From positions 1-40,213 of the forward strand of contig JAOAGP010000027.1 of NCBI GenBank assembly GCA_026415695.1: a stretch of 40,213 bases of DNA, written 5' to 3'. Position 1 is the first letter of the stretch. The number at the start of each line of letters is the position of its first letter. The translations under genes were made by a program, and so were the position numbers. Source of the DNA: Thermodesulfovibrionales bacterium. GTDB lineage: Bacteria > Nitrospirota > Thermodesulfovibrionia > Thermodesulfovibrionales > Dissulfurispiraceae. Positions 28,499 to 39,696 of this stretch are shown in pieces. The notes below the pieces were generated by a model. It was not told the origin of the DNA. It saw nothing but the letters and a program-made list of their open reading frames with translations, and ran no database searches.

Positions 28499-28885
28499 AT
28501 GAATCCTGAAGATATCAAATACCACAAGGAACACACATGGGTGAGGATATCAGGGAAAAAGGCTGTTGTTGGTATTACTGACTATGCACAAGAGTCGTTA
28601 GGCGATATTGTTTACATTGACTTGCCGGAGATTGATTCAACTGTAGAGGCAAACACAGAAATGGCAGAGATTGAATCCACAAAATCCACATCATCAGTGA
28701 TTGCACCAGTAAGTGGAACAATAGTTGAGGTAAATGAAAAGTTGATTGATGCCCCAGAGATCATCAATGAAGAACCATATACAAAAGGTTGGATTGCAGT
28801 TATAGAAATGGATAATCCCTCAGAGGTTTCTGAACTCATGGATGTTGATGATTATGAAGCGTATATAAGTGAAGAGTCAAAATGA
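28499..28885 (+). CDS. gcvH: Glycine cleavage system H protein
   Basis: Lipoyl carrier protein of 128 residues. The start KYHKEHTWVRISGKKAVVGITDYAQ and LGDIVYIDLPEI are the GcvH signature; Lys62 in ESTKSTSS is the lipoylation site. Full family length. AAGGAGG lies before the ATG. It overlaps lpdA by 4 bases (ATGA), tying the lipoyl carrier to its oxidoreductase; gcvT and gcvP are not nearby. GcvH-like proteins also serve as lipoate-binding carriers in sulfur-oxidising Hdr systems, but the sequence reads as ordinary GcvH. Confidence 0.93.
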   Translation: MNPEDIKYHKEHTWVRISGKKAVVGITDYAQESLGDIVYIDLPEIDSTVEANTEMAEIESTKSTSSVIAPVSGTIVEVNEKLIDAPEIINEEPYTKGWIAVIEMDNPSEVSELMDVDDYEAYISEESK

Positions 28886-30267
28886 ATGTAACCATTTTAG
28901 GAGCTGGTCCTGGTGGTTATGTATGTGCCATAAAATGTGCTCAATTAGGTGCACAGGTAACCCTAATTGACTCACATGAGGTTGGTGGCACTTGTTTGCA
29001 TTGGGGTTGCATTCCAACAAAGTCCATTAATGCCTCAATAGAGGTCTTAAGTAAAATACGGCACAGCGAGGATTTTGGTATTGAACTAAAGGGAGATGCC
29101 ATCCCTAACCTATCAAGGATAATAGATAGAAAAGACAAGATTGTGGCGACCCTTGTCAAAGGAATTAGAGGGCTACTAAAATCTCATTCAATAAATGTAG
29201 TGATTGGTCGGGGAAAACTGATTAGTCCCTATGAAATTGAAGTTGTAAAACCTGATAAAACCACTGAGATTATAAAGTCAGACAAGATTGTAATAGCAAC
29301 TGGTTCATCTCCTGCAGATATCCCATCATTGCCCTTTGATTCTAAACACATACTCTCAAGCACAGATGCTCTGGCTCTGAGACAGATACCGAAGAGTATA
29401 ACAATAATTGGTGCTGGGGTGATCGGTTGTGAATTTGCAACGATATTTAGTGAACTTGGTACAGATGTTACTATCATTGAGATGATGCCAAGATGCCTCA
29501 TCACTGAGGATGAGGAGATAGCAGAAATCCTGACAAGAGAATTTAAAAAGAAAAGGATTAAACTTCTAACAGGGGTGAAGGTTATAAAATCTGAAATAAA
29601 AGAAAATCACACATCTGTAAGTCTTGAAGATGGCAGGGAGATTGTATCTGAAAAGGTCTTGGTATCTGTGGGAAGGAGGATAAACTCTGATGGTATCGGA
29701 CTTGAAGAGGTTGGAATCCAGATAGGCAAAAGGGGTGAGATAATCGTTAACGAGATGATGCAGACAAATATACCAAGTGTTTTTGCAATTGGCGATGTTG
29801 TAGGAGGTATGTTGCTTGCCCATGTTGCATCTACGGAAGGGATTGTCTGTGCTTATAATGTTTGTGGCATAAAAAAGACAATTGATTATTCAGTGGTTCC
29901 AGCAACAATATTTACATCACCTGAAATTGGTTCTGTTGGCTTAAGGGAATTTGAATGTAAACAAAGAGGGATAGACTATAATAAGGGATACTTCCACTTT
30001 AGAGGTCTTGGTAAGGCTCAATGTATGGGAGAGATTGTAGGGATGGTAAAGGTTATTACACAAAAGGATAGTGACAAGATTATTGGTATGCATGTCATAG
30101 GTCCGCATGCCTCTGATCTGATACACGAAGGAGCGATTGCAATAAAACACGGTCTAACCTCTCAGCAAGTTGCTAACACGATACACTCTCATCCAACATT
30201 ATCAGAGGCAATAATGGAGGCTATGGAGGATGTGCATTCAAATGCTATACACATACCTAAAAAATGA
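28882..30267 (+). CDS. lpdA: Dihydrolipoyl dehydrogenase
   Basis: FAD-dependent oxidoreductase of 461 residues that reoxidises dihydrolipoyl groups with NAD+. FAD motif GAGPGGYVCA (7-16), redox disulfide GGTCLHWGCIPTK (Cys38 and Cys43), NAD-binding GAGVIGCEFATIF, FAD-binding second part FAIGDVVGGMLLAHVA, and the catalytic His-Glu pair in HSHPTLSEAIMEA. The HW in the disulfide loop replaces the more common NV/RG. Coupled with gcvH; it may also serve 2-oxoacid dehydrogenases encoded elsewhere. Confidence 0.94.
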   Translation: MNVTILGAGPGGYVCAIKCAQLGAQVTLIDSHEVGGTCLHWGCIPTKSINASIEVLSKIRHSEDFGIELKGDAIPNLSRIIDRKDKIVATLVKGIRGLLKSHSINVVIGRGKLISPYEIEVVKPDKTTEIIKSDKIVIATGSSPADIPSLPFDSKHILSSTDALALRQIPKSITIIGAGVIGCEFATIFSELGTDVTIIEMMPRCLITEDEEIAEILTREFKKKRIKLLTGVKVIKSEIKENHTSVSLEDGREIVSEKVLVSVGRRINSDGIGLEEVGIQIGKRGEIIVNEMMQTNIPSVFAIGDVVGGMLLAHVASTEGIVCAYNVCGIKKTIDYSVVPATIFTSPEIGSVGLREFECKQRGIDYNKGYFHFRGLGKAQCMGEIVGMVKVITQKDSDKIIGMHVIGPHASDLIHEGAIAIKHGLTSQQVANTIHSHPTLSEAIMEAMEDVHSNAIHIPKK

Positions 30268-30276
30268 TTGTGGTAA

Positions 30277-31581
<1,305 letters not shown>

Positions 31582-31583
31582 AC

Positions 31584-31919
31584 ATGAAAAGAAAGCCCCG
31601 TAATCTAAGAGAACAGGTCGCCCTTATAAAAAGACGCAACAACATGATCTTCTACAGTGTTGTCTTTATAGTTATAGCGTATTTAGTAGGAGCCATACTC
31701 TTAGGTGACATGGGGCTTATCAAATACACAAAACTAACAAAAACCTCTCTAAAACTTGAATCAGAGATAAAGACATTGGAGGATGAAAACAGAAGGATTC
31801 GTTCTGAAATAAAGGCGTTAAAAGAAGACCCTTATTTCATAGAAAAACATGCCCGTGAGGAATTTGGATTGGCAAGAAAGGACGAATACATATTCTTATT
31901 CCAGCAATCTAAAGAATAA
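31584..31919 (+). CDS. ftsB: FtsB/DivIC-family septum formation initiator
   Basis: Bitopic membrane protein of 111 residues: basic cytoplasmic N-terminus, one membrane helix (about residues 21-42), then a leucine-containing coiled coil (LESEIKTLEDENRRIRSEIKALK) and the conserved C-terminal YFIEKHAREEFGLARKDEYIF. FtsB works with FtsL and FtsQ to activate septal peptidoglycan synthesis. The eno-ftsB adjacency is the standard arrangement in many Gram-negative bacteria. No Shine-Dalgarno of its own is evident; probably coupled to eno. Confidence 0.88.
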   Translation: MKRKPRNLREQVALIKRRNNMIFYSVVFIVIAYLVGAILLGDMGLIKYTKLTKTSLKLESEIKTLEDENRRIRSEIKALKEDPYFIEKHAREEFGLARKDEYIFLFQQSKE

Positions 31920-31921
31920 AC

Positions 31922-34099
31922 ATGTCTGAACACCCCCTTTACATCGCTTTTTTCTGGCATATGCATCAACCATCTTATCGTGACCCACTGACAGGTGAGT
32001 ATCGTCTTCCGTGGGTAAGACTACATGGCACCAAAGACTATCTTGATATGCTACTGATCCTTGAGGACTTCCCTGAAATACATCAAACTTTTAATATAGT
32101 TCCTTCACTTTTTGACCAATTGATTGACTACATTGAAAGAGGGGCAAAAGATAAACATCTTATCCTAACATTAAAATCCCCATCTGAACTCACCGAAGAC
32201 GAGCGGATGTTTGTTGTGGAAAACTTCTTCTTGGCAAATTGGGATACTATGGTAAAGCCTTATACACGCTATAATGAACTTCTTATCAAAAGAGGTGTGA
32301 GATTTTCAAGGCAGGATATCAAAAGAATACACAAGTATTTCACAGATGATGACATAAGAGACCTTCAGGTCTGGTTTAATCTTGTATGGATAGACCCAAT
32401 GTTTGTCAGAAAAGAACCATTTTTACAAGAGATGTATAAAAAAGGAGCCTACTTCACTGAAGAAGAAAAGGTAGAGGTCATTAATCATCAATACAAGATA
32501 CTCAGAAATATAATCCCTTCATACAGAAATGCCTTCCAAAAAGGCATGGTGGAATTATCTGTAACGCCCTTTTATCATCCAATACTGCCACTATTATGGG
32601 ATACAAACAATGCACGGATTGCTATGCCAAATGTTGTACTTCCAAAGAGAAGGTTTGCATACCCTCAAGATGCTCAAGCACAGATAAAACTCGGCATAGA
32701 ATTCTTTACAAACCTATTTGGTAAAGCACCTAATGGGATGTGGCCATCTGAAGGGTCAGTCTGTGAGGACATCGCAAAAGAGATACATAAACAAGGGATA
32801 AGATGGATTGCAACAGACGAGGATGTGCTATCTGCATCGTTAGGTTATGGCTTAAGAGACAGTAGTGGAGGTGTTACAACACCTGAATCACTTTACAAAC
32901 CTTATGACTATGAGGGCATTAAGATATTCTTTAGAGACCACCGATTATCCGATCAGGTGGGATTTGTATATTCAGGACTTACTGCAGAGGATGCAGTGAA
33001 AGACTTTATTGGAAAGTTACAAACAATAAAAAACTCATTACCAAAAGATAGTGCATTTGTAGTTCCTGTCATACTTGATGGCGAAAACGCTTGGGAATAC
33101 TACAAAAATGACGGACATGATTTTTTGAGTCTTTTATATGAAACAATTTCAAAGGACAAACGATTCAGGGCTATCACAATGTCAGAATATCTTAATATAA
33201 GCGATAACATTGGCAAACTACATAAACTACATGCAGGTTCATGGATAAATGCAAATTTTGGTGTGTGGATTGGACATGAAGAGGATAACATAGCATGGGA
33301 TTATCTCACTCAGGTAAGAGAAGACCTTGAGAGATTTGCATTAGAGAATCCAAATTTTGATATATCTGAAGCATGGCGTTCTATCTATGCTGCAGAAGGA
33401 AGCGACTGGAATTGGTGGTATGGCGATGACCATAGCACCGACACAGCTGAAGAATTTGATGAACTCTTTAGAAGGCATCTGATGAAGGTCTATGAGGTAA
33501 TCGGTAAAGAAATACCATCTTTTCTATATGTTCCTGTGCTAACTGAAGATAGAGAAGTCTTACCGGCAACACAGATAAAAGGATTTATTTACCCAAAGAT
33601 TGATGGCACGATAACGAGCTATTACGAGTGGCTAAACTCTGCATTCATGGAGCACAAACAAACAGGTGGCAGCATGCATAAGATAGAAGGTTTTATCACA
33701 GGGCTTTACTACGGATTTAATGAAAGATCATTCTGCATAAGGCTTGATTCAGTCTATCCATTTAGAGAGATTAAAGACCCTATCATCGTTGAAACAAAGA
33801 TTATAAAACCCATTGAATGCAAGATTAGGATACAGATTCGTGACAATAAGATATCAAGTAGTTTTATGATACTAAAAGATGCCCATTGGAAAGAGATATC
33901 AACCACAATCAATGTAGCAGTTGAAGACATTCTTGAGATGGAAATACCTTTTGACAACATAAAGGCAAAGGTAAATGATGAAATACAATTTTCAGTTCAC
34001 ATCATGAAAAATGGCGATGAGATTGAAAGATGCCCATGGCGTGGTTATATAACCCTAACCTGCCCTTCCCCTGATTACGAAAAGATGATGTGGTATTAA
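31922..34099 (+). CDS. Glycoside hydrolase family 57 protein
   Basis: 725-residue GH57 enzyme without signal peptide, so probably acting on cytoplasmic alpha-glucans. Family motifs in order: HMHQP (13-17), SVTPFYHPILPLL (213-225), GMWPSEGSV with the likely nucleophile Glu277, and VILDGENAWE with the likely acid Asp386; a C-terminal beta-rich domain follows from about residue 550. It resembles the COG1449 alpha-amylase/alpha-mannosidase branch more than branching enzymes or amylopullulanases. Exact activity (glycogen degradation, 4-alpha-glucanotransferase) cannot be told. Two bases separate it from the ftsB-like gene, placing it in the eno operon; glycogen-related carbon flow would fit. Confidence 0.85.
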   Translation: MSEHPLYIAFFWHMHQPSYRDPLTGEYRLPWVRLHGTKDYLDMLLILEDFPEIHQTFNIVPSLFDQLIDYIERGAKDKHLILTLKSPSELTEDERMFVVENFFLANWDTMVKPYTRYNELLIKRGVRFSRQDIKRIHKYFTDDDIRDLQVWFNLVWIDPMFVRKEPFLQEMYKKGAYFTEEEKVEVINHQYKILRNIIPSYRNAFQKGMVELSVTPFYHPILPLLWDTNNARIAMPNVVLPKRRFAYPQDAQAQIKLGIEFFTNLFGKAPNGMWPSEGSVCEDIAKEIHKQGIRWIATDEDVLSASLGYGLRDSSGGVTTPESLYKPYDYEGIKIFFRDHRLSDQVGFVYSGLTAEDAVKDFIGKLQTIKNSLPKDSAFVVPVILDGENAWEYYKNDGHDFLSLLYETISKDKRFRAITMSEYLNISDNIGKLHKLHAGSWINANFGVWIGHEEDNIAWDYLTQVREDLERFALENPNFDISEAWRSIYAAEGSDWNWWYGDDHSTDTAEEFDELFRRHLMKVYEVIGKEIPSFLYVPVLTEDREVLPATQIKGFIYPKIDGTITSYYEWLNSAFMEHKQTGGSMHKIEGFITGLYYGFNERSFCIRLDSVYPFREIKDPIIVETKIIKPIECKIRIQIRDNKISSSFMILKDAHWKEISTTINVAVEDILEMEIPFDNIKAKVNDEIQFSVHIMKNGDEIERCPWRGYITLTCPSPDYEKMMWY

Positions 34100-34136: not shown

Positions 34137-34637
34137 TTAATTTATAACCCTTTCTACCAGATACCTTACAACCTCATCTGTAAACTTGTCTATCGCATCA
34201 TCTGTAGTCCCTGCAAAAACAGTCCCACCAGAAGAAGTGGTTTCAACATCAAAACTGCCTATTGATTTGCCAGAATAATGGTCAATAACTGAAACCTTCC
34301 CCGAAACCTTTGCCCTTCCTGCCATGGCTCCAACCCAGAATCTCTCTGATCTTGAAACCAGAGCCATCTGCTCTATATCCACGCTTATTAACAAATCAGC
34401 CTTTTGCCCTTTTTCAACTAAACTGCTAAAGATGTTGGCTTTCTTCAACTTTTCTAAAAGAGTTGTCTCTATCTGATCTATCTCTTTTTGATTTTGAGGA
34501 ATTACAGTTTTTACTACCACATTAGCAGTGATACCTCCTTTAACCTTAAACTCTGCATCAGGTCTTACAACGCTTTGCCCTGCACATCCTGAAAGTAAGA
34601 CAAAGACCAAAATTATTAGACTAAATCTCCTTTTCAA
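34137..34637 (-). CDS. DUF4410-like lipoprotein
   Basis: Predicted outer-membrane or periplasmic lipoprotein, 166 residues. From a TTG at 34637 the signal is KRRFSLIILVFVLLSGCAG with lipobox LSGC (Cys18); GGAGG is seven bases upstream, so longer in-frame versions are rejected. The mature part (VRPDAEF then ADLLISVDIEQMALVSRSERF, and a final DDAIDKFTDEVVRYL) fits the DUF4410/YajG-like lipoprotein style in which a small alpha/beta domain is followed by a Gly/Ser-rich loop. It overlaps the end of the TPR lipoprotein gene by 17 bases, so the two are coupled. Function unknown. Confidence 0.75.
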   Translation of the reverse strand: MKRRFSLIILVFVLLSGCAGQSVVRPDAEFKVKGGITANVVVKTVIPQNQKEIDQIETTLLEKLKKANIFSSLVEKGQKADLLISVDIEQMALVSRSERFWVGAMAGRAKVSGKVSVIDHYSGKSIGSFDVETTSSGGTVFAGTTDDAIDKFTDEVVRYLVERVIN

Positions 34638-36744
34638 GCATAAACCTCCATTTGTATATCTGATCCCTAATTGTCTGTGCATTTGTAGCATTTGGATTTA
34701 ACTGTAAATAGATCTCCATGTTTTCAATCGCCTTACTATAATCAGATACCTTTTCATAAACTACTGCCTTATTAAAGTAAATCTGCGGATTAAAAGGCTG
34801 TATTTGTGATGCTCTATTAAGCTCCTCTATAGCCTCCTCAAATTTATTGTTTGAAAATAATACCTCTGCATGAAGAAAATGCCTTCTTGCATCATCTTTT
34901 AGTTCTATCAATGAAGGATTTGCAGAGATTATTCTTGCTATCCTGCTTCTAATTCTTTGAGCCTTTTCAGGTGTTGATAGTTGGATTAAACGGGCATACT
35001 CCTTGAGTGCTTGACTGTATTGACCTGCCCTTTCATATTCAATCGCCCTATTTTCAATCCTTTCAAAATAAGGTAATAGAGCCGAATAGAACTCACCTTT
35101 TATCTTATTGGTTATTAAAAGGCTGTCATCTGATTTATTATAGATTTTCAGGGCTTCCTCAAATCTTCCTAATTTAGCATAGGCAATTGCCTTAAGGATG
35201 GTCGCATAACTGTAGTCTTTCAATGAATACAATTCATTTATTGCCCTTTCATATTGACCATCCTTGAGAAAATAAGATGCTTTGGCAATCTTTAGATAAT
35301 CATTTTGGGGTGATATCTTTTCAGCCTCTTCAATATATCTTTTAGCACTACCCTTGTCATTTATCTCAAGATAATTAAGAGCCATAATGCTCATGTATTC
35401 CACTACAAGAGGATTAGAGTAAAATCTTTCCCGTTTGATGTTTTTAGTAAATGTCTCTTCAGTTTCTGGCTTTTTAATCAGAAGTTTTACCTCTTTGCCT
35501 TCCTGTCCTCTTAATCTTTGAACTACCTCATTTATCTTCATATTAAGGGTGGATATCCCTTCAATATCCAAAATCTCGTAATTGGGCTTAAGACCTGCCT
35601 TTTCGGAGGGGCTATTTGGTTCTACGGATCTTATCTTTATGTATTCTCCATCATTTTTTGCAATACTAACACCAATCCCTGAAATTGTAAGATTCTTCAA
35701 TACATTTTCACATGTTTTTATAGATTCATCATACCTTCCGATCTTAAAATAAAGCATGGCAAGATGTAGGGGTGCTTGTTCGTCATCAGGTCTTTGCTCT
35801 ATGTATTTCTTTAAAACCTCTATTGCCTTATCAATCTTTCCTGCTGATGTGTAGAATTCAGAAAGTTTTTTCGTTAGATCAAATCTTTTTGGAGACAGAG
35901 ATATTGCCTTTTCAAGTTGGACAAGTGCATCTTTGTATTTTCTTTGAGATAAATAGGCTTTATACAGCAATAGATAACCATCAGCAGAGTTGGGATGGAG
36001 TTGAATAACCATTTGAGAAGCAGCAAGTGCCTCTGTAATGTCATTATTTTTAAGCGACAAATTTGCCACTACCTTATACGATGTGGCATTTGACGGATCT
36101 TTGTTAATCAGCTGTTTTGCCTCTAAGATTTGAGAATTTTGGTTTGATAATGTCAAATTGATTTTATCAGTAGCATTTTTTAGTGAATTAAATATCGCCC
36201 GATAAGCAGTATTGCCATAATCCTTTTCATCAATGTTTGATACGAAACCAGTTTTTTCCATCCTTGCTGAACCATAACTCATGATGGGTAATGCAACAGG
36301 CAAGATATCGCTATCATATAAATCAAACTTTGTATAAACAACAACCTCCAATGATTCAGGGCAACACTTTCTCACAAAGTTTAATGTATCTACAGTTGAG
36401 TTTATGATAAGCGTGTCTTTAGATACTGCTGGAAGGCTCTTATTGGAGTATTTAGTCTCTCTAAATAGATTGTCAAAAAATACGGGAAGTGCCTGCCTTA
36501 ATAGATTACCAGTAGGGAATTCAACTGTGTATATTACATTGCTGTTGAAGTCAGAATATATAGACTGTTTTGCTTGAGATTCATCTAAAATTATTAGGGC
36601 ATTATAAGGAATCTTTCTTACCGTAGTAGATTCTTTAGGGGGCTCAATCACAAAGGGTTGCACCTTTGTGCTTATTCGCATTGGTTCACAACTAATCAGA
36701 GTAAAAATAAGAGATAATAAAATCAAGACCAATATCCTTTTCAT
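34621..36744 (-). CDS. TPR-PDZ-TPR lipoprotein
   Basis: Large lipoprotein of 707 residues; function not recognised. Signal KRILVLILLSLIFTLISCEP with lipobox cysteine 19. Residues 40-200 form an alpha/beta domain reminiscent of YajG/LptE-like outer-membrane lipoproteins. TPR-type helical repeats run 205-345 (for example YKAYLSQRKYKDALVQLEKA), then a PDZ domain at about 353-435 (SGIGVSIAKNDGEYIKI, SPSEKAGLKPNYEILDIEG), then more TPRs to the end. ATG at 36744 follows AAAGGAG. The layout suggests a periplasmic scaffold binding peptides or partner proteins of the same cluster. Confidence 0.8.
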   Translation of the reverse strand: MKRILVLILLSLIFTLISCEPMRISTKVQPFVIEPPKESTTVRKIPYNALIILDESQAKQSIYSDFNSNVIYTVEFPTGNLLRQALPVFFDNLFRETKYSNKSLPAVSKDTLIINSTVDTLNFVRKCCPESLEVVVYTKFDLYDSDILPVALPIMSYGSARMEKTGFVSNIDEKDYGNTAYRAIFNSLKNATDKINLTLSNQNSQILEAKQLINKDPSNATSYKVVANLSLKNNDITEALAASQMVIQLHPNSADGYLLLYKAYLSQRKYKDALVQLEKAISLSPKRFDLTKKLSEFYTSAGKIDKAIEVLKKYIEQRPDDEQAPLHLAMLYFKIGRYDESIKTCENVLKNLTISGIGVSIAKNDGEYIKIRSVEPNSPSEKAGLKPNYEILDIEGISTLNMKINEVVQRLRGQEGKEVKLLIKKPETEETFTKNIKRERFYSNPLVVEYMSIMALNYLEINDKGSAKRYIEEAEKISPQNDYLKIAKASYFLKDGQYERAINELYSLKDYSYATILKAIAYAKLGRFEEALKIYNKSDDSLLITNKIKGEFYSALLPYFERIENRAIEYERAGQYSQALKEYARLIQLSTPEKAQRIRSRIARIISANPSLIELKDDARRHFLHAEVLFSNNKFEEAIEELNRASQIQPFNPQIYFNKAVVYEKVSDYSKAIENMEIYLQLNPNATNAQTIRDQIYKWRFMLEKEI

Positions 36745-36746
36745 AT

Positions 36747-37844
36747 TTAATCTCCTTTTAGCCATTTATAGATTATCTTTTGCCCAGTAGTCATATCATC
36801 TTCAAATCTTTGCATAAACTCATCCTTATTGAAATCAAAGCCTAAAACATTAGCGGCACTTTCAGTCTGTGAAAGGAATTTATCAATAGAGGTAAAGGCA
36901 ATCTTTGAATAAATCATCCTTCCAATATCCGATACACCTTTTGTAAGATTTGGCATTGGAATAAGAGAGATTCCATAGTCAATAGTTTCAGCCCCTGCTT
37001 GAGCAATCCCTTCCGTTTTTGCTGTAACAGCAATCTTTACGATTGGCAACCCCTTATCATAATACCTTGAGCCCCATTCCTTCCCATATTTTCTATCAAG
37101 CCTTTCAACAATCTTGCCCCCATACTCATCAATCTTTTCTCCAATCCTTTCTGTTATCTTTTCCTGTATAACATTCCCAAAGATACTATTGATATCTGGA
37201 ACTGTAATCAATTTTTCATCATTGATACTTAAAGTGGTATTATCCTTGCTATTGACTGATGGCGATTGCCAACTAAAAGCAGTAAGTTGCCCACCAAGTG
37301 TTTGGAATGTAAAAGGAGAACTACTCTGACTTGTCTTTGGTTGCGTTTGCGTCTTTGCCTGTGCTAATAAAGAATTGTATTGAGAAAGAAGCTGTTTTTT
37401 CCTTTCTTCTTGTTTCCTTTTTTCCTCTTCAAGCCTTCTCTGCTGTTCATACTGTTTTTGCATCTGGGAAACATTGGTAGAATCATCATCAAACATCGCA
37501 CCAGAAAGCCCTCCCAAAAAACCACTCATAAAGGCACCAAATAACCCTACTGCCATCTGCTGAGAATTTGAGAGTTTAGGGTTAGTAAATGGAGTATATA
37601 CTGATGAACCACTCCCTGATGAACCACTTGTTATTGGTGTGCAACCTCCACAACCAACACATCTGTATCTCACGCCACCATAAGACACCTCTCTTACCTG
37701 CCCTTTTGGAATATATGTACCATCAGGCATCTGGCTACCTTCACATGACATCCCTGTTGGCATTGGGACACTACCTGCACATAGAATCACCGGTTGGAAT
37801 ATAAAAATTAAGATTGAAATAAAAACTAAAAACTTCTTTCCCAC
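36747..37844 (-). CDS. Exported protein with glycine-zipper helix and coiled coil
   Basis: 365 residues, family not recognised. Sec signal peptide 1-24 (FLVFISILIFIFQPVILCAG; could also be a lipobox-like VILC). Then a Cys-rich loop (RCVGCGGC, 61-68), a Gly/Ser linker (72-81), a glycine-zipper hydrophobic segment MAVGLFGAFMSGFLGGLSG (97-115), a charged coiled coil rich in Glu/Arg/Lys/Gln (127-165), a Thr/Ser/Gln-rich linker and a helical C-terminal domain. GTG start, with AGGAGGG upstream. It is 2 bases before the TPR-PDZ gene. The zipper suggests membrane insertion or oligomer formation. Confidence 0.7.
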   Translation of the reverse strand: MGKKFLVFISILIFIFQPVILCAGSVPMPTGMSCEGSQMPDGTYIPKGQVREVSYGGVRYRCVGCGGCTPITSGSSGSGSSVYTPFTNPKLSNSQQMAVGLFGAFMSGFLGGLSGAMFDDDSTNVSQMQKQYEQQRRLEEEKRKQEERKKQLLSQYNSLLAQAKTQTQPKTSQSSSPFTFQTLGGQLTAFSWQSPSVNSKDNTTLSINDEKLITVPDINSIFGNVIQEKITERIGEKIDEYGGKIVERLDRKYGKEWGSRYYDKGLPIVKIAVTAKTEGIAQAGAETIDYGISLIPMPNLTKGVSDIGRMIYSKIAFTSIDKFLSQTESAANVLGFDFNKDEFMQRFEDDMTTGQKIIYKWLKGD

Positions 37845-37854
37845 AGAAACCCTC

Positions 37855-38766
37855 CTAAAAGGTTTGTTGAATATCTATAATCTTGTCAACCTTGAAACTA
37901 TAATTTTTAAGGTCATCAATGTTCATAATCTCTAAAACACCTGATAAGGAATTAAAGAAAACATAAAGGCTTGTATCTTTGAGAAATATTATTGGTTTTT
38001 CTGCCTGCAAAAACTCAAGTGCAGAACCGTTTTTTACCATTCCAACACCATTTGAGGTCTTATAAATCAATCCTGCCTTTTCATTGTAAAATATTTCTCT
38101 TATGTCCTGTCTTGGATGCATGTAAGTAATCAATTCTTTTTGTCTTCTAATCTCCTTAATTACTCCACCACTAGCAAGAAAAATATTTTCTCCCTTCCCA
38201 CTTACTGCATTTATTGGCTCATCTGAAAGGTATATCCTCTGAAACTGTTTTTTTGAATTATCAAAGAGATATACCTCATACTTTTTCGTTTTCTTGTTAA
38301 GACCACTTGCATAAATTGTATTGTCCCCTTTAAACAATCTTGCTTCTTGAAATGGTAGAGAAGCAATTGACCTTATTGAAGCTGATGGGATCTTATCATC
38401 ATTTTTAGTAATCTCAATGTAGCCCATACTTTCACCATCATCAAACAGCAAAACACCGTTATCAAGACATAAAACATCCTTCACATCATTTTTAATCTTT
38501 ACCACATACCCTGTTGCAAGATTAATGAGTAGTTTTCCTTCATAAATAACAACGGGTTGGTTTTTAAAATCAATAAAAAATCTTATATTTTCATTAGATA
38601 AACCTTGAGTATTGTTTTTCTTTTCAGGCTGAAGTATCCATCTTGTCTTGACAAGACTGTCCTCTGGCAAGATTAGAAAAGTCTTTGAGAGGAATTTTAA
38701 ATCTTCAGCATAAAGTGTATGAGCATACAAAAAGAAAAGAAAGAACAGCAGAAACTTAATATACAT
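37855..38766 (-). CDS. Exported protein of unknown function, beta-rich
   Basis: 303 residues, not recognised. Signal peptide 1-20 (YIKFLLFFLFFLYAHTLYA, cleavage after YAEDL). The mature part is a series of short beta-type strands with turns (VVIYEGKLLINLATGYVV, VLLFDDGESMGYIEI, YASGLNKKTKKYEVYLFD), which reads like an incomplete beta-propeller. First gene of the four-gene envelope cluster. No Shine-Dalgarno precedes the ATG, and a possible -10 lies only six bases before it, so translation may be leaderless. Confidence 0.65.
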   Translation of the reverse strand: MYIKFLLFFLFFLYAHTLYAEDLKFLSKTFLILPEDSLVKTRWILQPEKKNNTQGLSNENIRFFIDFKNQPVVIYEGKLLINLATGYVVKIKNDVKDVLCLDNGVLLFDDGESMGYIEITKNDDKIPSASIRSIASLPFQEARLFKGDNTIYASGLNKKTKKYEVYLFDNSKKQFQRIYLSDEPINAVSGKGENIFLASGGVIKEIRRQKELITYMHPRQDIREIFYNEKAGLIYKTSNGVGMVKNGSALEFLQAEKPIIFLKDTSLYVFFNSLSGVLEIMNIDDLKNYSFKVDKIIDIQQTF

Positions 38767-38943: not shown

Positions 38944-39675
38944 TCATTTTCTTTTCCCCCAGTCAAATCTTATTGCCTTTTCTTTGCACACATCCAAGCA
39001 TGTCCCACATAAGATGCACTCTGCATTTTCCATTTTGTTGTTTTGAACCATCTTTTGCACCTGAAGACTCATTGGACAGTGTTTATCGCATAAATTACAC
39101 AGTTTACACACCTCTGGGGTTACTTTTAATTGTAAAGAAGCCCAGTTGAAGATGTTTCTAATCCTTCTACCAATAATCATAAAAGGTGCCATCCAACATA
39201 GATGATGACAAAATGCCCTCTTGCCAAAGACAAATGCAGGAATGACGATGAGTAAAAATAAGACCATAAAGTAAGTAATAAGTGCCTGAAGGGTAGTAAC
39301 CGAGAGTCCATAGGTAGTAAGATAAAAGAAATCTACTGAATGATACCCTCCAGCCCTTACTGCTAATATGATAATCGCGATAATCCAAGGCACCCAGATA
39401 ATCCATTTGATAGCATCTCCTCTTGTAACCTTTTTATCCCTTGCAATAAAGATTGCCTCCTGACACCCTGCAGCAGGACACAACCAACCGCAAAATCCCC
39501 TGCCAAATAACATGGCTATTAAAAACATTGAGGCAAAGACTATGAAACTGCCGTTGATAATACCCTTTGAACTTGCAACTAAGATGATAACAGGTGAGAA
39601 GTAATAAAAAATCGCAGGGAATAAGAAAAAAGATACTAAAATTAAACCCTTGCGTATTTTTTGCCGTTTAGTCAA
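38944..39675 (-). CDS. NapH/NosR-like membrane iron-sulfur protein
   Basis: Polytopic membrane protein of 243 residues with about five membrane helices. It has the CGWLCPAAGCQEAIF motif of NapH/NosR/RnfA-type electron-transfer proteins, a second cysteine-histidine loop (FCHHLCWMAPFM), and two C-terminal [4Fe-4S] motifs CKLCNLCDKHCP and CILCGTCLDVCK. Such proteins move electrons from the quinone pool to periplasmic or cytoplasmic acceptors. The TTG at 39675 is chosen over one seven codons upstream because AAGAGG lies five bases before it. It stands alone; no terminal reductase gene is adjacent, so its partner is unknown. Confidence 0.82.
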   Translation of the reverse strand: MTKRQKIRKGLILVSFFLFPAIFYYFSPVIILVASSKGIINGSFIVFASMFLIAMLFGRGFCGWLCPAAGCQEAIFIARDKKVTRGDAIKWIIWVPWIIAIIILAVRAGGYHSVDFFYLTTYGLSVTTLQALITYFMVLFLLIVIPAFVFGKRAFCHHLCWMAPFMIIGRRIRNIFNWASLQLKVTPEVCKLCNLCDKHCPMSLQVQKMVQNNKMENAECILCGTCLDVCKEKAIRFDWGKRK

Positions 39676-39696
39676 ATAATACCTCTTTTCTACCAA

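Follow-up and report, generated by a model that had tools for sequence, protein, structure and literature searches.

A conserved and transferable four-gene envelope operon of Thermodesulfovibrio and a relative, possibly encoding a periplasmic adaptor complex

The window analyzed here is a stretch of 40,213 nucleotides from a Thermodesulfovibrionales bacterium (assembly GCA_026415695.1, contig JAOAGP010000027.1). It harbors a conserved, previously unstudied and transferable envelope operon at 34137-38766, where the four tightly packed minus-strand genes of an earlier note were confirmed as four ORFs. The features are the following.

37855..38766, minus strand: P4, exported 303-aa protein, six-bladed-type beta-propeller by prediction (ORF, AlphaFold2, PDB structure matches, 11 cassette members aligned)
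36747..37844, minus strand: GZP, exported 365-aa coiled-coil protein, GTG start (ORF, orthologue alignment, motif and hydropathy scan, low-confidence model)
34621..36744, minus strand: TPR-PDZ-TPR lipoprotein, 707 aa (Pfam/NCBIfam, solved-structure search, alignment)
34137..34637, minus strand: DUF4410 lipoprotein, 166 aa, TTG start (Pfam DUF4410, E=1.5e-12; orthologue starts; 17-base overlap)
34621..34637, minus strand: overlap of the TPR-PDZ and DUF4410 genes, 17 bases, kept in 7 of 7 loci with DUF4410 after TPR-PDZ
28499..34099, plus strand: flanking housekeeping operon gcvH-lpd-enolase-ftsB-like-GH57 (GH57 by Pfam)

Using orthologue-supported starts, i.e. ATG at 36744 for TPR-PDZ and TTG at 34637 for DUF4410, the previously noted spacings of +10, +2 and -17 bases were reproduced exactly. 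All four genes are under purifying selection relative to the closest relative (dN 0.14-0.25, dS 0.8-1.4; NG86/JC). A promoter and terminator scan detected no excess over shuffled sequences. The four proteins are predicted to be exported, in agreement with the earlier note, as judged from signals and lipoboxes (LISC in TPR-PDZ, LSGC in the DUF4410 protein) read from the sequence. In the flanking operon, the names gcvH, lpd and ftsB are presumed from synteny. Upstream of the cassette and on the same strand, positions 38944-39696 encode a NapH/MauN-like ferredoxin-type membrane protein, scoring far under the NapH cut-off.

The third gene product is a TPR-PDZ-TPR lipoprotein, as had been noted, with TPRs detected by Pfam and a PDZ domain above the PDZ_6 cut-off (E=7.6e-10). 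It is composed of the lipobox LISC, the cysteine of which is invariant among orthologues, an unassigned N-terminal domain (about 190 aa), TPRs, the PDZ domain (about 359-440, numbering of the 714-aa form) and further TPRs. CtpB (chains at E about 2e-15) and carboxyl-terminal proteases provided the closest PDZ chains in the search of solved structures, placing the domain among the CTP-type PDZ domains. With the TIGR00225 prc model the protein reaches 67.8 bits over residues 359-461, versus a whole-protein cut-off of 218.6. An S41 peptidase domain was not found in the chain, as the match covers just positions 48-149 of the 335 in the prc model, and the chain outside the matched segment is TPR. 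Judged from these searches, the nearest counterparts of the PDZ domain are found in C-terminal processing proteases, but its own chain has no protease domain. The sole S41 domain of the window's genome is located on another contig, and each of six genomes checked possesses one ordinary S41 CTP elsewhere. TPR-PDZ shares with CTP adaptors of the NlpI/LbcA type the architecture of a lipoprotein with a TPR array. For its N-terminal domain, neither Pfam nor the PDB sequences yielded a match, and common ancestry with DUF4410 found no support from hhalign. In L112 (L-numbers denote individual loci, G-numbers genomes), a DUF4410-like N-terminus of TPR-PDZ that appeared likely by eye is unsupported by Pfam and by hhalign (E 0.016).

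For P4, noted before as a beta-rich exported protein, an AlphaFold2 model from three sequences is all-beta (pLDDT 77.3, pTM 0.71) and displays, in the prediction, the radial four-stranded blades of a beta-propeller. When compared with the PDB, the model resembled propellers of the NHL, SMP-30 and designed Pizza6 kinds, with Z 13-14 over about 230 residues at an rmsd of about 4, and P4 is predicted to be a beta-propeller of the six-bladed type. The likeness to NHL/SMP-30 six-bladed propellers, in predicted fold and size, is at fold level only, as sequence identity in the structural matches is about 6-14%, and P4 belongs to no accepted Pfam or NCBIfam family. We rejected the hydrophobic C-terminus (-QTF) as a conserved PDZ ligand, as it is extended in three of 11 orthologues. 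The fourth protein, previously described as a DUF4410-like lipoprotein, is a DUF4410 (PF14366) member with 48 bits at a gathering cut-off of 26, and differs from DUF4410 lipoproteins in being coupled to TPR-PDZ through the conserved gene overlap. Its profile gave no significant match to PDB sequences, and no paper mentioning DUF4410 was found in the literature collection searched.

GZP consists of an N-terminal module with four cysteines (C34, C62, C65 and C68, from the alignment), a short hydrophobic helix (about 93-114), a charged coiled coil (about 127-166) and a helical C-terminal domain. The AlphaFold2 model from three sequences (mean pLDDT 41) is too poor for fold use and served for secondary structure only. 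No accepted Pfam or NCBIfam family covers the protein, and its profile has no significant match among PDB sequences. The earlier note considered GZP an exported glycine-zipper/coiled-coil protein and a candidate pore or membrane element; the coiled coil and the predicted export hold, and the glycine zipper does not. The helix in the window has several small-xxx-Gly-xxx-small steps and no strict GxxxGxxxG, making the label a loose reading. At the helix, GxxxGxxxG is present in two of 11 cassette orthologues and absent in distant relatives, so the spacing is unconserved. Moreover, the helix is marginal (19-residue Kyte-Doolittle peak 1.44) and missing altogether from the fusion-type relatives L098 and L111. 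GZP thus lacks the conserved GxxxGxxxG in a transmembrane helix that characterizes glycine-zipper pores, and we reject such a pore on the basis of conservation and hydropathy.

A search for gene order confirmed conservation of the cluster across genomes. The order P4-GZP-TPR-PDZ is intact in ten genomes, namely the window and nine of the Thermodesulfovibrio genus (L039, L040, L086, L087, L088, L089, L090, L091 and L093). This genus, g25 in our grouping, is assigned as Thermodesulfovibrio because the cassette proteins of Thermodesulfovibrio sp. N1 (L050) are identical to those of L100. L100 (G121) is an eleventh locus, where the contig ends inside TPR-PDZ and DUF4410 is placed between P4 and GZP. 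Seven loci have DUF4410 directly after TPR-PDZ, always with the identical 17-base overlap; in L039, L040 and L091 the two genes are not adjacent. Both P4 and GZP are rare: of 176 genomes from the order, 14 contain P4 and 21 contain GZP, and the counts among 395 genomes from the phylum are again 14 and 21, with nearly all full-length P4 matches in g25. In G120 (L092, 5222-5872) the cassette has decayed: TPR-PDZ is gone, the remaining piece of P4 contains a TGA, and the remnant of GZP continues into a prepilin-like gene; hence, the cassette is dispensable there.

Several lines of comparison concern how the cassette may have reached the window. Its chromosomal neighbors vary among the g25 loci, with a common flank on the side of what is presumably an aspartokinase gene in L088, L089 and L090, and nearby genes in common in L040, L087 and L092. 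Within its family, this form of the cassette was found only in the window's genome. P4, GZP and TPR-PDZ of the window are 72-75% identical to those of G126, a 66%-complete assembly in which misbinning of the cassette contig is possible, and the G126 cassette is less similar to other g25 cassettes (41-70%) than to the window. Enolase behaves differently, with only 71% identity between window and G126 as compared to 81-90% between G126 and g25. Correspondingly, the cassette tree joins window and G126 (support 100), whereas the enolase tree recovers the g25 clade (support 100). Sister genomes retain the gcvH-lpd-enolase-ftsB-GH57 block with other genes after GH57 and without the cassette. Given the conflict between the two trees and the absence of the cassette from sister genomes, it was probably acquired laterally, which is the simplest reading of this distribution. 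A distant version of the cluster in G005 adjoins the same GH57. In a genus other than that of the window, a FecR-type cluster version (L041:3090-12362) lies beside the same GH57-ftsB-enolase block as in the window, and this flank may represent a recurrent site for envelope clusters.

Profile searches for distant relatives revealed that GZP and a TPR lipoprotein, usually with a PDZ domain, stay together while the third gene varies, encoding a FecR-domain protein in L041, L044 and L094 and a coiled-coil protein in L042, L043 and L095. A homologue of the FecR type also adjoins the TPR-PDZ end in L045. In L112, from another family, GZP, propeller and TPR-PDZ are adjacent; the propeller is recognized by profile (E 2.3e-4) and by hhalign to the fused propellers (E 4.7e-7), and GZP, without a significant profile match, by position and a common GGQL..FSW motif. 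In two lineages, each with a GZP relative next to it, the propeller forms part of a longer chain: it is joined to ankyrin repeats and a PDZ domain in L098, and to ankyrin repeats and a C-terminal TPR in L111. Profiles match the propeller with E 4.6e-35 and the GZP C-terminus with E 2.6e-11. Of all the evidence, these fusions, which link the parts, argue most strongly for joint action of the propeller and the repeat/PDZ protein. The scaffold role formerly suggested for the TPR-PDZ lipoprotein is plausible, and gene order across genera and propeller-ankyrin(-PDZ) fusions link the parts. Genes connected with proteolysis lie near several variants: an M48 peptidase gene adjoins GZP in L113, serpin genes occur in L095 and L111, a caspase gene in L045 and a CHAT gene in L047. 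A defense system was rejected, as the PADLOC hits were all generic ones to TPR, ankyrin, caspase and cyclase models.

Profile searches did not place the four proteins in curli, Bam or type IV pilus assembly, consistent with the previous impression that none matches a known pathway. CsgG of curli secretion is not among the Pfam/NCBIfam families listed for the four proteins, and the NCBIfam scores are far too low for the Bam complex (BamD/YfiO 28.1 versus 81.4; BepA 38.3 versus 570) and for type IV pili (PilW 42.6 versus 154; Tgl 33.8 versus 225). Neither a secretion component nor an outer-membrane barrel component is present in the cassette. The E. coli NlpI-Prc system (PMC5686067) is similar in that an outer-membrane TPR lipoprotein cradles a client and a CTP-type PDZ domain is employed; however, in the cassette TPR and PDZ belong to a single polypeptide that lacks a protease domain, and its gene is accompanied by those for a propeller, a coiled-coil protein and DUF4410. 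LbcA-CtpA of Pseudomonas aeruginosa likewise pairs a CTP with a large TPR lipoprotein, LbcA, whose 11 TPRs form an open spiral, but the PDZ domain resides in CtpA rather than LbcA, and the portion of the account available to us describes no propeller or GZP partner (PMC8764530).

By analogy to these systems, we tentatively propose that the cassette encodes an outer-membrane-anchored periplasmic adaptor complex, NlpI/LbcA-like and not a pore, at somewhat less than an even chance. The TPR-PDZ and DUF4410 lipoproteins would tether the complex to the outer membrane. Capture of client proteins or of their C-terminal peptides would fall to the TPR solenoids together with the PDZ domain of CTP type. 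GZP would be the constant partner holding the assembly together, with the propeller as an exchangeable recognition subunit that FecR-type or coiled-coil exported proteins replace in relatives. Clients would then be presented to periplasmic proteolysis, or shielded from it, as for NlpI (Prc) and LbcA (CtpA). The co-conserved operon, with genes overlapping or nearly abutting in several settings, argues for an adaptor, as do the propeller fusions of L098 and L111, the adjacent trio of L112, the constant GZP and TPR(-PDZ) pair with its changing third gene, the CTP-like PDZ domain, the protease-type neighbors of the variants and the single ordinary S41 CTP of each of the six genomes. On the other hand, protease-type neighbors occur only in distant variants, not at the window or consistently in Thermodesulfovibrio, and the analogy is partial as NlpI-Prc and LbcA-CtpA carry the PDZ domain in the protease and not in the adaptor. 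What persists of the earlier interpretation is an uncharacterized, conserved envelope cluster with a TPR-PDZ scaffold; GZP as its pore or membrane element does not.

The same components could alternatively form an envelope-assembly or secretion machine that delivers a product to the surface, as suggested in the earlier note, with TPR-PDZ as scaffold and GZP as membrane or pore element. In general, TPR lipoproteins help to assemble pili, polysaccharides and barrels, and this general role, the predicted export of all four proteins and the small-xxx-Gly-xxx-small steps of the window GZP helix are compatible with such a machine. So are an autotransporter-like ORF in L088 (8499-10610), which lies upstream on the cassette's strand and has a repetitive passenger and a barrel-like C-terminus, and a prepilin-like gene downstream in L040, although neither neighbor is common to other intact loci. 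As the cassette contains no barrel, secretin or ATPase, the PilW and BamD models score far under their cut-offs, and the GZP helix is marginal and absent from L098 and L111, we consider this machine quite unlikely. A scaffold for peptidoglycan or outer-membrane maintenance without a proteolytic role fits the TPR lipoprotein architecture and the FecR-domain and coiled-coil exported partners of the variants, and NlpI is a precedent, as it is also reported to scaffold hydrolases (PMC7049810). Nevertheless, profile searches found no peptidoglycan-binding or hydrolase domain in any cassette protein, which renders this scaffold improbable.

Sensing represents another, unlikely, role, in which the propeller or FecR-type subunit would bind an envelope signal and the TPR-PDZ/GZP core would relay it to CHASE2 cyclase, CHAT or caspase regulators. 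In G030 (L047:1747-9148), FecR, DUF4384, CHASE2-guanylate cyclase, TPR-CHAT, GZP and TPR lipoprotein genes are arranged in a row, possibly a complete envelope signaling system, and G037 (L045) carries a TPR-PDZ end, a FecR-type protein, a caspase-domain protein and DUF4384. Yet no regulator adjoins the cassette in the window and none is recurrent in Thermodesulfovibrio. The many propellers matched by the P4 model also include the PknD sensor domain, which says little because propellers are generic binding folds.

The adaptor proposal can be extended to a broader, rather doubtful, one: that Thermodesulfovibrio and relatives possess an undescribed class of periplasmic adaptors controlling envelope proteolysis, built from a TPR lipoprotein with a protease-less CTP-type PDZ domain, a constant coiled-coil partner rich in cysteines and a recognition subunit that can be exchanged (propeller, FecR or coiled coil), on a cassette moved between families. 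If true, envelope proteolysis or scaffolding through adaptors, described chiefly in E. coli and Pseudomonas, would extend to a deep lineage, and the substrate-binding PDZ domain would be located in the adaptor instead of the protease, along with swappable recognition subunits. The cassette also provides context for DUF4410 and for two protein families that no accepted Pfam model covers.

Among the distant variants, bacterial serpins are encoded beside cassette relatives in two different families; in L111 (6520-10226) there is a 4-base overlap between the serpin gene and that of the fused propeller, and in L095 (577-1896) the serpin gene is near the cluster. In the latter cluster (G072), a second GZP-like protein is encoded at L095:4272-5201, which suggests duplication of the constant subunit.
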